Assembly (NCBI GenBank): GCA_038093515.1
Contig: JBBPSI010000135.1
Coordinates: 1 to 64,000 of the forward strand
DNA length: 64,000 nucleotides
Source: Butyriboletus loyo
Lineage: Eukaryota; Basidiomycota; Agaricomycetes; Boletales; Boletaceae
Direction of reading: 5' to 3'
Shown: positions 1,078-57,822 of the stretch, piece by piece
Layout of the letters: the number at the start of each line of letters is the position of its first letter
How positions within the stretch are numbered: the stretch's first letter is position 1
The notes under the pieces: model-generated
Database searches by the model: none
What the model saw: only the letters and a program-made list of their open reading frames with translations
Told to the model about the DNA's origin: nothing
Program-made: the position numbers and the translations under genes

Positions 1078-1489
1078 GTTGAGGATTAAGTTGAAGCTCC
1101 TTGATTCCATCTTGCCAGGTCTTTGTGTAGACCTGCAACTGTAGTGGGACCTCGTGTGAAAGGGTACTACGTGCTAGCATTCGACTGCGCGTTGCCTCGC
1201 AACAGTTTGATGTGGTTGCAGTATGGACTATGCATGCTTGTCTGTCAGACCAATGTTGAATGACTTGTGTCTCCTTATCATAAGTGATGGTAAACTCTCT
1301 GGAATTGGTGACATGGACCTCATTGACCATGGTGAATTTATGTTTGTGTCCTGCATCATTCATGTTAGCATGGGTGCATTGAAAGTGTTGTGCATAAGTA
1401 CGTCGACGTCGCCATGCACAATGTGTTGAATGTTTATAATACATAGGCCAATGTGGCCATACAGAACGTGACTGTTGATGATGGAGATA

Positions 1490-2685
1490 GCTTTCAGTGG
1501 CTGTCCAGTAGCTTTCACCCTCATATGGAAGTAGCTTTCTGTGGCTATACAGTCTCTTGACTAATGTGGAAGTAGCTTTCTCTGTGGCTGTTCAGTAGCT
1601 TTCTCCCTTATATGGAAGTAGCTTTCAGTGGCTGTGTATTGCCCCCTGCACATGGTCACCATTTGTGTACATATACTTGGAATAATAGTCCAAGTGAATC
1701 AAGTTAAATTTAGGGGCTATTGTGCATGGCAATGTCAATGTTGCCATGCATGATCTTGACATTACTTATTGGATGTCTACACTATTGCAGTGGGTATAGA
1801 CTAAAACTAGAAGGTGTGGTAGCTTGCATAACATGTTGATATTACCATGCAAGGATTGGAGCATAGGCTGCATAACACATCGACGTCACCATGCAAGGTC
1901 AATGATACTCTTGGTGCTTTCCAAGGACAGTGTGACATGATCCCAAAGTGGAAGTAGCTTTTGTGACATGACCCAAAAGTGGAAGTAGCTTTTGTCACAC
2001 AATCCCAAAGTGGAAGTAGCCTTTGTCACACAATCCCAAAGTGGAAGTAGCTTTTGTGACATGACCCAAAAGTAGAAGTAGCTTTTGTCACACAATCCCA
2101 AAGTGGAAGTAGCTTTCTGTGGCTGTCCCATAGCTTTCAGTGGCTGTGTATTGGCCCCTGCACATGTCACCATCCATATACCCTTGGATAATAGTCCAAG
2201 TATGACCTAGTGAGTGAATCAAGTAAACTTAGGAGCTACCATGCATGGTGACATCGATGTCACCATGCACAATCTTGACAAGTATAATGAATGTCTCACA
2301 GTTTGGGACTTGGACTAGACAGGTGCAAATATACTGTAGGCCAGGATACAGCTGTTGCAGTGGAGCATAGACTAAAACTAGAATGGCAGCTTGCATAACA
2401 CATCGACACCACCATATACATACAAAGATTGGGATGTTATGCTATAGTGCTAATACTGGCTCACATCAATGTTGCCATGCATGACAGTGTGACACAAACC
2501 CAAATGTGGAAGTAGCTTTCGTGACACAACCCAAATGCAGAAGTAGCTTTCGTGACACAACCCAAATGCAGAAGTAGCTTTCGTGACACAACCCAAATGT
2601 AGAAGTAGCTTTCGTGACATGACCCAAAAGCAGAAGTAGCTTTCTGTCACAACCTGAATGGGGAAGTAGCTTTCTGTTGGAGCTA
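1490..2685. repeat. Minisatellite field of GAAGTAGCTT units with a higher-order duplication
   Basis: About 15 copies of the word GAAGTAGCTT recur in units of about 30 nt, often paired with CACAATCCCAAAGTG or CACAACCCAAATG. The clusters lie near 1525-1625, 1940-2120 and 2505-2680. Between them a longer block is present twice (for example CTAAAACTAG at 1801 and 2372; the CTGTGTATTG..CCCCTGCACATG stretch at 1632 and 2143), with offsets of about 510-570 nt. Short inverted repeats around CATGCATGG..CCATGCA are scattered through it. Minus-strand open frames across it encode only repeated S/Y/F-rich peptides and are by-products of the repeat. Confidence 0.88.
2242..2269. repeat. Perfect 28-bp palindrome
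   Basis: The left arm TGCATGGTGACATC is the exact reverse complement of the right arm, with no spacer. A related imperfect inverted repeat with 10-bp arms (TGCATGGCAA) lies near 1728-1755 in the earlier copy of the higher-order block. Confidence 0.9.
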
Positions 2686-2689
2686 CGCC

Positions 2690-3205
2690 ACCTAGTCCCT
2701 GGTTTAGAATATTAGGGACCCCTTAGTAAGCGGCCACCCCCGGCTTTCGGCGTGAGAAACCTAACCGGCTATACCCGGGACCCCCGGCCTTCGGGCCGTG
2801 CGGAACCAACCACGTGATGTGGCGTGGGAATAGTCCGGCATCCGGCAACTCGGCCTTTTAGGCAACCGAACACCGGTCGGCTATTGAACCGGCTACTTCG
2901 GTTAGGATTATCAAGCGGCCACCCCCGGCATGGGGGTTACCGCCGGCCCGAAGGGGCCGAGGGTCTAGATCATGACGTCATACGGCATGTCGGCCCGGAG
3001 GTCTAGAACCGCGTAGTAAGCGAGCGGAAATTAAACTGATTGTCACCCAGGCAACCAGGTCCCCGTGTCTTCTCGTGAGACCGTATCCCACGCAATGACG
3101 CAATGCTCCAGATACGTCCTTACTTTCTCTCACACTTCGTAATAATATGCTTGGTCCGTGCACCGTATCGCTAGATATATAAACGGTGCGTCGGCTTTCT
3201 GACGT
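2690..3205 (+). other. GC-rich, hairpin-rich stretch leading into the ribozyme pair
   Basis: No protein-coding signal is seen. There is a 17-nt direct repeat (AAGCGGCCACCCCCGGC at 2728-2744 and 2913-2929) and several compact hairpins: a 5-bp stem closed by TTCG at 2785-2798 and a 6-bp stem with loop GAAG at 2944-2959. A TATATAAA box lies at 3176-3183. The stretch is much more GC-rich and structured than the minisatellite before it. It could be the untranslated part of a non-autonomous retroelement; that is inference. Confidence 0.55.
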
Positions 3206-3210
3206 TCACT

Positions 3211-3293
3211 ACCACCAAGGTCTGATGAGTCCCGCTGGGGACGAAACAGGATGGATTGACGGCTTGGATGCCCTCAGTCCTGTTACCTGTGGT
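3211..3293 (+). ncRNA. Hammerhead ribozyme, type I (first of a pair)
   Basis: All conserved core elements are present: CUGAUGA at 3222-3228 and GAAA at 3243-3246. Stem II is GUCCC/GGGAC with a GCUG tetraloop (3229-3242). Stem III is ACAGGA/UCCUGU (3246-3251 with 3278-3283), topped by a 26-nt insert that folds into a further small stem. Stem I is AGGU/ACCU plus ACCAC/GUGGU with a two-base bulge (3211-3221 with 3285-3293). The cleavage triplet is GUU, so self-cleavage is predicted after 3284. With stem I open-ended the topology is type I, and stem III looks long enough for cleavage of a single unit. Function is inferred from structure alone. Confidence 0.9.
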
Positions 3294-3418
3294 AAATCCC
3301 CACTCACGCAGTACTAATCACCGCAACTCCTCGCCTTCGGCTCGTCGTTGCTCCCTCCTAACCTAACCAAGATTGCGCCTATAAAGCAAGGTTCGTGCCT
3401 ATTGATCGTTTGATGACC

Positions 3419-3493
3419 AAAAACAGATCTGATGAGTCATATGACGAAACAGGTGTGAGGTCCTAAGTAAAGACCCCACTGTTATCTGTTTTT
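3419..3493 (+). ncRNA. Hammerhead ribozyme, type I (second of a pair)
   Basis: The core is CUGAUGA at 3429-3435 and GAAA at 3446-3449. Stem II is GUC/GAC with an AUAU loop. Stem III is ACAG/CUGU extended by UG/CA and GGUC/GACC around small internal loops. Stem I is a perfect 10-bp helix of AAAAACAGAU with its complement at 3484-3493. The triplet is GUU, as in the first ribozyme, with cleavage predicted after 3483. Outside the core and the ACAG/CUGU base of stem III the two ribozymes differ, so this is not a simple recent tandem copy. Double cleavage would free a 199-nt RNA (3285-3483). Confidence 0.9.
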
Positions 3494-3525
3494 TTACAGC
3501 TCTCAGTTTTCAATACCTCATATCC

Positions 3526-3552
3526 AACAAAAAAAGCTTCGCTTTTTTTGTT
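3526..3552. repeat. Perfect 12-bp hairpin with TTC loop
   Basis: The arm AACAAAAAAAGC pairs with its exact reverse complement across a 3-nt loop. It lies about 30 nt after the second hammerhead and could mark the end of the ribozyme-bearing element or act in 3' end formation. No function can be shown. Confidence 0.6.
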
Positions 3553-3589
3553 TCCTCCTAACTCTGCTGCTTGTCATATCGGTGCATTC

Positions 3590-4246
3590 ATGAAGGCCTG
3601 CCAATTACTCAAGGAACTCTACGAGAAGTTTGATCAGGCACCTGCAGACTTCAAGGACTTACAGCCAGAGTTTCCACACCCTCGCTGCTACACGAGCTTG
3701 GATGGGGAGAACCAGGTGTGTTTCAGGTACATCCGTGCTCTGGAAGCTAGCGAGCTGCTCTTCATCGTGAAGACGGATGCTGGCAAGCAACTCTTCAAGT
3801 TTGTGCGGACATACGCTCGGGCGGTGCATCAGCAGTGCGCAGACTGGGGAATCTCACCATCGCTAAGGGGACTCGATGCCGTCCCAGGAGAGTGGCACAT
3901 GGTCGTCATGGATCTTCTCGAGGAATACGAATGTCTTCAAGATGTTAAGCCCAGTCTCTCCCGCGAACAGAAGGATAAGCTGAGAGACGAGCTTAGAAGG
4001 AAGCTAACAGATCTTCACCAGATGAATCTGGTGCATGGAGATGTACGTGATGCGAACGTGATGGTTTCGACGGACCGATTGGGATGGAGGTTGGTCGACT
4101 TTGACTGGTCGGGCAAGATTGGCGAGGTATGATACCCCATGAACTTGAATCGTGGACTGGGTTTGCGACGACCGGAGGGTGCGCTTGATGGCGAGTTGAT
4201 TCTCGCTGACCACGACATTGAAATGTTAGACTATTTATTCCAGTGA
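3590..4246 (+). pseudogene. Protein-kinase-like (fungal PKL) gene interrupted by one in-frame TGA
   Basis: Translation gives a kinase-fold protein with the catalytic-loop motif HGDVRDANVMV and a DFG-like DFDWSG, as in the protein-kinase-like family that is expanded in Agaricomycetes. After GKIGEV a TGA occurs at 4130-4132. The same frame then continues as YPMNLNRGLGLRRPEGALDG and HDIEMLDYLFQ to a TGA at 4244-4246. Family members read GE-x-RYP at this place, so the stop most simply replaces an Arg codon (CGA to TGA, one transition). The N-lobe is short and no upstream exon is evident, so the gene may be truncated as well. A sequencing error, or a splice donor at the GTATGA covering the stop, cannot be excluded, but the downstream frame argues for a nonsense mutation. 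Confidence 0.7.
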
Positions 4247-57750: not shown

Positions 57751-57822
57751 TGCCCACTGGCTGGATTGAACAACCGACCTCACCATTACGAGTGGCGCGC
57801 TCTACCACTGAGCTAAACGGGC
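57751..57822 (-). tRNA. tRNA-Thr (anticodon CGU), no intron
   Basis: It folds into a full cloverleaf of 72 nt. The acceptor stem is GCCCGTT/AGTGGGC with discriminator A. The D arm is TAGCTCAGTGGTAGAGC (A box). The anticodon stem CGCCA/TGGTG holds loop CTCGTAA, giving CGU (reads ACG). The T arm is GGTTG-TTCAATC-CAGCC (B box). Seven T on the transcribed strand follow at once (57744-57750) as a Pol III terminator. Confidence 0.95.

Follow-up and report, generated by a model that had tools for sequence, protein, structure and literature searches.

Monomer-stable variants of the hammerhead ribozyme were reportedly found in fungal Penelope-like elements by Cervera and De la Pena in 2014. Coprina is a telomere-associated group of such elements in fungi (Gladyshev and Arkhipova 2007). 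The Terminons of bdelloid rotifers have reverse-complement telomeric repeats just downstream of the hammerhead and occur in 5'-truncated head-to-tail arrays (PMC6431247). In Agaricus bisporus, Penelope-like elements are located at two chromosome ends that lack telomere sequence (PMC7473861), and a scan of Pleurotus lists five Hammerhead_3 matches (PMC5040776). The role of the hammerhead in Penelope-like elements and Terminons has been termed a mystery, and minimal forms of the ribozyme are described (PMC7761336). Two hammerheads, HHR1 and HHR2, lie 199 nt apart in the 64-kb stretch analysed here (contig JBBPSI010000135.1, positions 1 to 64,000, of the Butyriboletus loyo assembly GCA_038093515.1), which is referred to as the window. 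The locus is very probably a stack of 3' ends, shortened on their 5' side, from Penelope-like elements that are endonuclease-deficient, attach to telomeres and carry a hammerhead in their terminal repeat. This kind of element is already known, and the families A, B and C of this genome are additional members.

An earlier note on the window had proposed two type I hammerheads. Their cores, stems, GTT triplets and predicted cut sites (3284 and 3483) were read directly, the structural descriptor agrees and the observation is confirmed; both motifs are real. The core of HHR1 is composed of CTGATGA (3222-3228), stem II (GTCCC/GGGAC), GAAA (3243-3246) and the triplet GTT (3282-3284), while that of HHR2 has CTGATGA (3429-3435), stem II (GTC/GAC), GAAA (3446-3449) and GTT (3481-3483). 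Both have the invariant core, three stems, open helix I and NUH triplet of the type I class. The descriptor, which specifies core, three stems and triplet, found only these two in the window and none in 12 dinucleotide shuffles. When the hammerhead pairs were enforced, stem III was closed in both. Dinucleotide shuffles folded equally well or better in 0 of 200 cases for HHR1 and 4 of 200 for HHR2.

The genome (30.3 Mb in 420 contigs, denoted C; fetched loci are denoted L) was searched with window positions 2673-3560. The 46 matches represent mostly two separate repeats, A, which contains HHR1, and B, which contains HHR2. Repeat A was matched on C26 (twice), C60, C208, C175, C218, C89 and C86. 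The window copy of B is 98% identical to L018 4805-5000, a position downstream of a reverse transcriptase (RT) frame, where B extends upstream. Most other B copies also extend further upstream; the window copy is cut at 3366, at the joint with the A tail. The 3' ends of A and B have the same order of parts, a TATA-like box, the hammerhead, a UUC(G)-loop hairpin and a CCTCCTAAC tail, and the distance from cut to tail is 69 nt in A and 70 nt in B. Most copies are shortened at the 5' end and stacked head to tail, and long B carries a version of the same repeat before its frame.

In 20 fetched stretches of at most 10 kb each, together with the window, the structural descriptor identified 33 hammerheads on 17 contigs: 8 of A, 22 of B (one of which, on C128, has an altered GAAA) and 3 type III hammerheads of family C. 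A B copy on C89 with a broken stem II was excluded from the 33, and the A copy on C89 has the triplet GUA in place of GUU. A strict core pattern had 26 matches genome-wide and 0 for the reversed control; the loose pattern CTGATGA-N-GAAAC was uninformative (237 matches vs. 402 for the reversed control). Family C was seen on C68 only. Its type III hammerheads, with a GUA triplet and a UUCG hairpin, lie at about 373-430, 1298-1355 and 3607-3664 of L025, and two of the three copies have a CTAACC array.

The earlier note also held that the stems have been kept despite sequence divergence, and this was borne out by the B copies and by a model built from them. A covariance model trained on 10 B sequences only detected HHR1 with 30.7 bits (E 5.3e-6); HHR2 scored 97.3 bits but is part of the training set. 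The alignment comprised ten distinct B sequences and 81 columns, with the structure imposed from one of them. Under this structure 93.4% of the cells pair, 7 cells are changed on both sides and the covariation score is 0.092, values each reached by 0 of 500 shuffles. Three pairs are altered on both sides, which 26 of 500 shuffles reach, and further pair types were matched by 194 of 500. All two-sided changes fall in stem III, where pair 47-59 is CG, UA or AU, and 9 of the 10 pairs of stem I are invariant. The shuffles overstate the structural case because the B sequences are related and the structure was taken from one of them.

The earlier note had proposed a covariance search as a check. The B-derived model detected HHR1, and the Rfam models matched neither site at the gathering level. 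That the Rfam scan of the window gave no hammerhead at this level counts against the assignment. In permissive mode a single 16.5-bit RF00008 fragment was found over HHR2. Genome-wide, none of the best 68 of 5706 candidates for RF00008 and the best 73 of 5712 for RF00163 exceeded the cut-off; below it were the A copy on C89 (17.6 bits) and three C copies (18 bits). Since the Rfam models miss both window ribozymes at the gathering level, such elements may be undercounted.

The longer B copies (C81, C304 and C208) encode a 1240-residue Penelope-like (telomerase-like) RT, P0001, whose RT motifs we take to be Penelope-type. The pointer of the earlier note to Penelope-like elements was well placed. 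Its statement that no RT is nearby fits the window: among the best 150 of 424 RVT_1 candidates in the genome, none was on the window contig or within 5 kb of any hammerhead. Longer B copies elsewhere do carry one. The window copies of A and B are truncated and without RT. A GIY-YIG endonuclease was not detected, Pfam (E<=0.01) giving only RVT_1 in 9 of 19 members, although a divergent domain could escape. The comparison of P0001 with PDB by sequence gave a single row (E 0.33), and no match was found among viral contigs. The RT frame is flanked by the repeat (pLTR), present as a 5' repeat on C208 and C304 and as tandem 3' ends on C81. On C208 and C304 the 5' repeat has lost 61 nt and contains an additional 0.9 kb or so ahead of the hairpin and frame. 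This extra sequence occupies about 1160-2050 of L012 (C208:41000-43244), flanked by what are CCTC and ATATCC in the 3' version; C304 and the C208 stretch that overlaps it are its only matches among the fetched loci.

The possibility was considered that A is a non-autonomous family using the RT of B, with the common 3' hairpin and tail as the recognition part. The order of the ends, the tail and the ribozyme core are common to A and B, and all 5 RT matches in the genome are at B-type loci. However, every A copy is 5'-truncated or begins at 2718, and an RT may lie upstream in a full copy that is lost or unassembled. Use of the B enzyme by A is therefore possible, but on balance not probable.

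Addition of such elements to chromosome ends could proceed as follows. The transcript would start near the hammerhead, which closely follows the TATA-like box. The hammerhead would trim the 5' end of the transcript to a 5'-OH and split a tandem transcript into units. The CCTAA tail of the element RNA may then pair with the G-rich telomeric overhang, and the RT would copy the RNA onto the chromosome end with the G-overhang as primer. Erosion would remove the exposed distal 5' side, where the next element would be added. In the window, the B to which A became joined would by then have been truncated to 197 nt, setting the spacing of 199 nt. The ribozyme need not be essential, because in an Anolis element, whose hammerhead cleaved only with protein present, ribozyme mutants had no effect on insertion in vitro (PMC11167929).

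The arrangement of the copies on the contigs is consistent with attachment at chromosome ends. On 13 of the 16 contigs whose length is known, and in the window (14 of 17), the CCTAA-tailed 3' end faces away from whichever contig end is closer; counted by copies, 26 of 31 are so directed, plus the two of the window. A copy lies within 10 kb of a contig end on 11 of 16 contigs. The genome has four CCTAA arrays, of which two follow B tails and two follow C tails. Contact of the elements with the telomere is inferred.

Several points weigh against the reading of the locus as telomere-attaching elements. C316 has the opposite orientation, the copies on C310 and C335 are mid-contig and two of the five C26 copies are inverted. 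Moreover, nearness to a contig end is weak evidence, since repeats also interrupt contigs and a contig end need not be a chromosome end. The main unit of the tails is CCTAA, of 5 nt, and the host telomere repeat is not seen in the assembly; the CCTAA array pattern had 11 overlapping matches vs. 5 for the reversed control. The telomere itself was not seen: four CCCTAA units in a row occur nowhere in the assembly (0 matches against 16 for the reversed control), and there is no TTAGGG array. Those 16 are forward matches of (AATCCC)n, the telomere pattern reversed, over the whole genome. Neither A nor C yielded an RT, P0001 itself matches no Pfam family, and in the only 5' terminal repeat that can be seen in the long B elements half of the hammerhead is gone. 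Against the assignment of the hammerheads, the free minimum-energy folds of HHR1 and HHR2 are not hammerheads, the enforced fold being less stable by 4.2 and 3.6 kcal/mol, respectively, in a method that does not model the non-canonical hammerhead core. Self-cleavage of both is a prediction.

The junctions between stacked copies were also compared. A hammerhead-element tail was upstream in 15 of 26 rows; the other 11, in which the upstream piece is not such a tail, were omitted. The 15 rows represent 11 distinct positions, 4 of which start at a CTAA motif, and with 8 such motifs in the 1284 nt that were examined the binomial p is 7e-6. The test was picked after the data were seen, which counts against it. 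Junctions that start at CTAA fit pairing of the tail with exposed telomere-like sequence, or homology-driven repair.

Rather than by fresh retrotransposition, the stacks could have formed when chromosome ends that have CCTAA-like sequence in common underwent recombination or break-induced replication. Recurring junctions (A at 2760 on C60, C208 and C175; B at 4487 on C26, C208 and C316), the CTAA microhomology and the 99.9% likeness of C208 and C304 over 5.3 kb are in keeping with it. However, repeated additions over time are indicated by the eleven distinct positions, where A precedes B or B precedes A, and by the B copies, which range from about 82 to 100% identity. Recombination as the source of the stacks is thus rather unlikely.

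Features of the window around the two hammerheads
Feature	Position	Strand	Remark
Repeat D, subtelomere-like	1205..2717	+	31-bp minisatellite inside; adjoins 5' edge of A
Repeat A, 3' part of hammerhead-bearing retroelement	2718..3365	+	matches have differing 5' edges
TATA-like box upstream of HHR1	3176..3182	+	sequence reading; kept in A copies extending that far
HHR1, type I hammerhead	3210..3294	+	predicted cut after 3284
UUCG-loop hairpin of A	3333..3341	+	sequence reading
A tail CCTCCTAACCTA	3354..3365	+	joined to truncated B
Repeat B, 3' end of Penelope-like element	3366..3562	+	5'-truncated to 197 nt
TATA-like box upstream of HHR2	3380..3385	+	sequence reading
GT...AG-ended stretch with 5' half of HHR2	3391..3452	+	equivalent absent from 5' terminal repeat of long B elements
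HHR2, type I hammerhead	3419..3493	+	predicted cut after 3483
UUC-loop hairpin of B (A run, GCTTCGC, T run)	3530..3549	+	sequence reading
B tail CCTCCTAAC	3554..3562	+	extended to (CCTAA)n in C81 and C26 copies

Within repeat D, positions 1205-2677 share 99% identity with L025 1791-3264 on C68, and C83 and C191 also have matching sequence. The end of D, ...GAATATTAGGG, adjoins A in the window, C on C68 and B on C83. Another common flank, ending ...GAGGTAATATGGAT, is joined to B at AGG positions (L015 5280, L013 5693 and L021 4555). The last 43-48 nt of B, comprising hairpin and tail, occur in isolation at L012 1103-1146, L018 5037-5084 and L027 4938-4980 and resemble extremely 5'-truncated copies. 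A long terminal repeat retrotransposon, considered on the basis of TGTTGGA...TCCAACA near 2673 and 3529, was rejected; the repeat edges are at 2718, 3366 and 3562. A constant 117 nt between the cut and the 5' edge (at 3166, about 3170 and 3366) was likewise rejected as a unit, the edges of other copies being many and different. A tRNA gene (59 bits) lies at 57751-57822 on the minus strand. A protein encoded in the window has its closest named counterparts in Hydnomerulius (53%) and Paxillus (51%), genera of the Boletales; another match reaches 99%.

The hammerhead core could at the same time form the 3' portion of a spliceosomal intron, with GT at 3391, the CUGAUGA as branch-like site and a CAG ending at 3452. 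If so, splicing would remove half of the ribozyme and protect the element mRNA while unspliced RNA would cut itself, so that a transcript would take one of two routes. Precisely this stretch is absent, as 61 nt with AG|GT edges, from the 5' terminal repeat of long B, and A is laid out likewise, from GTGCGT at 3186 to a CAG ending at 3249. However, the junction left by the 61-nt loss was found only on C208 and C304 (<=3 mismatches; reversed control 0), which are 99.9% alike over 1250 nt and represent a single event, and a deletion between AGGT repeats accounts for the loss equally well. The TATA-like box is so close upstream that transcripts begun from it would not include the donor, whose GT is missing in the old C335 copy. 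A spliced form of A is absent from the genome (0 matches at <=3 mismatches). The intron is accordingly improbable.

The earlier note had predicted a 199-nt RNA product fit for ligation into a circle; in this reading the pair of hammerheads would delimit a retrozyme-like unit that is excised and circularised. Both ribozymes are intact and on the same strand, two cuts would free 199 nt, and such a product may arise at this locus if it is transcribed and both predicted ribozymes cut. The suggestion did not survive the comparison of copies, and the unit is very improbable. The two ribozymes end different repeat families, B occurs without A at many loci and the A-to-B spacing is 512 nt on C26 and 360 nt on C60; on C89 the B-to-A spacing is 186. 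Neighbour spacing in A/B arrays ranges from 159 to 694 nt, and therefore 199 nt is not a unit. The distance is 199 nt because B is truncated to 197 nt in the window, and it looks like an accident of truncation, not a designed RNA circle. No constant-size unit between copies of the same ribozyme, as in retrozymes, was found.

That the pair is a host processing unit for a downstream kinase-like gene relic is scarcely credible: a frame (3467-4132) does lie downstream, but the C26 paralogue of the relic is on the strand opposite the nearest hammerhead and the hammerheads accompany repeats. Nothing was seen in favor of the domesticated processing unit suggested by the earlier note. The relic itself, which is presumably kinase-like from its motifs, occupies 3563-4205, and its paralogue (84%) is at L009 1110-1741.

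The fungal elements resemble Coprina, as reported, in their fungal host, the lack of a detected endonuclease and a telomere-like tail. They share with plant and animal retrozymes the presence of hammerheads in repeats a few hundred bases apart, but have no constant-size unit bounded by one ribozyme and are tied to an RT-encoding element (PMC7761336, PMC7229834). In the openly licensed papers that were consulted, neither the type III hammerhead of family C nor a hairpin separating the ribozyme from the tail was seen described. One fungus has two closed type I families and one type III family, upstream of CCTAA-like tails, as well as an open RT frame. With these in one genome, the link between self-cleavage, tail and addition to chromosome ends becomes testable.

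As in other Penelope-like elements, the hammerhead is within the repeat that flanks the RT frame; the reviewed examples are mostly minimal and without helix III (PMC6155905, PMC7761336), whereas helix III of the fungal hammerheads is closed and covarying. The likeness to Terminons and rotifer telomere-associated elements extends to an endonuclease-deficient RT, a hammerhead near the 3' end, telomere-like repeats downstream and 5'-truncated head-to-tail arrays (PMC6431247). However, Terminons reach up to 40 kb with accessory genes (PMC6431247), while the fungal elements appear to be about 5-6 kb, with no such genes seen in loci of <=10 kb. Moreover, unlike Terminons (PMC6431247), the fungal elements have about 70 nt and a hairpin between cut and tail, and a closed helix III.
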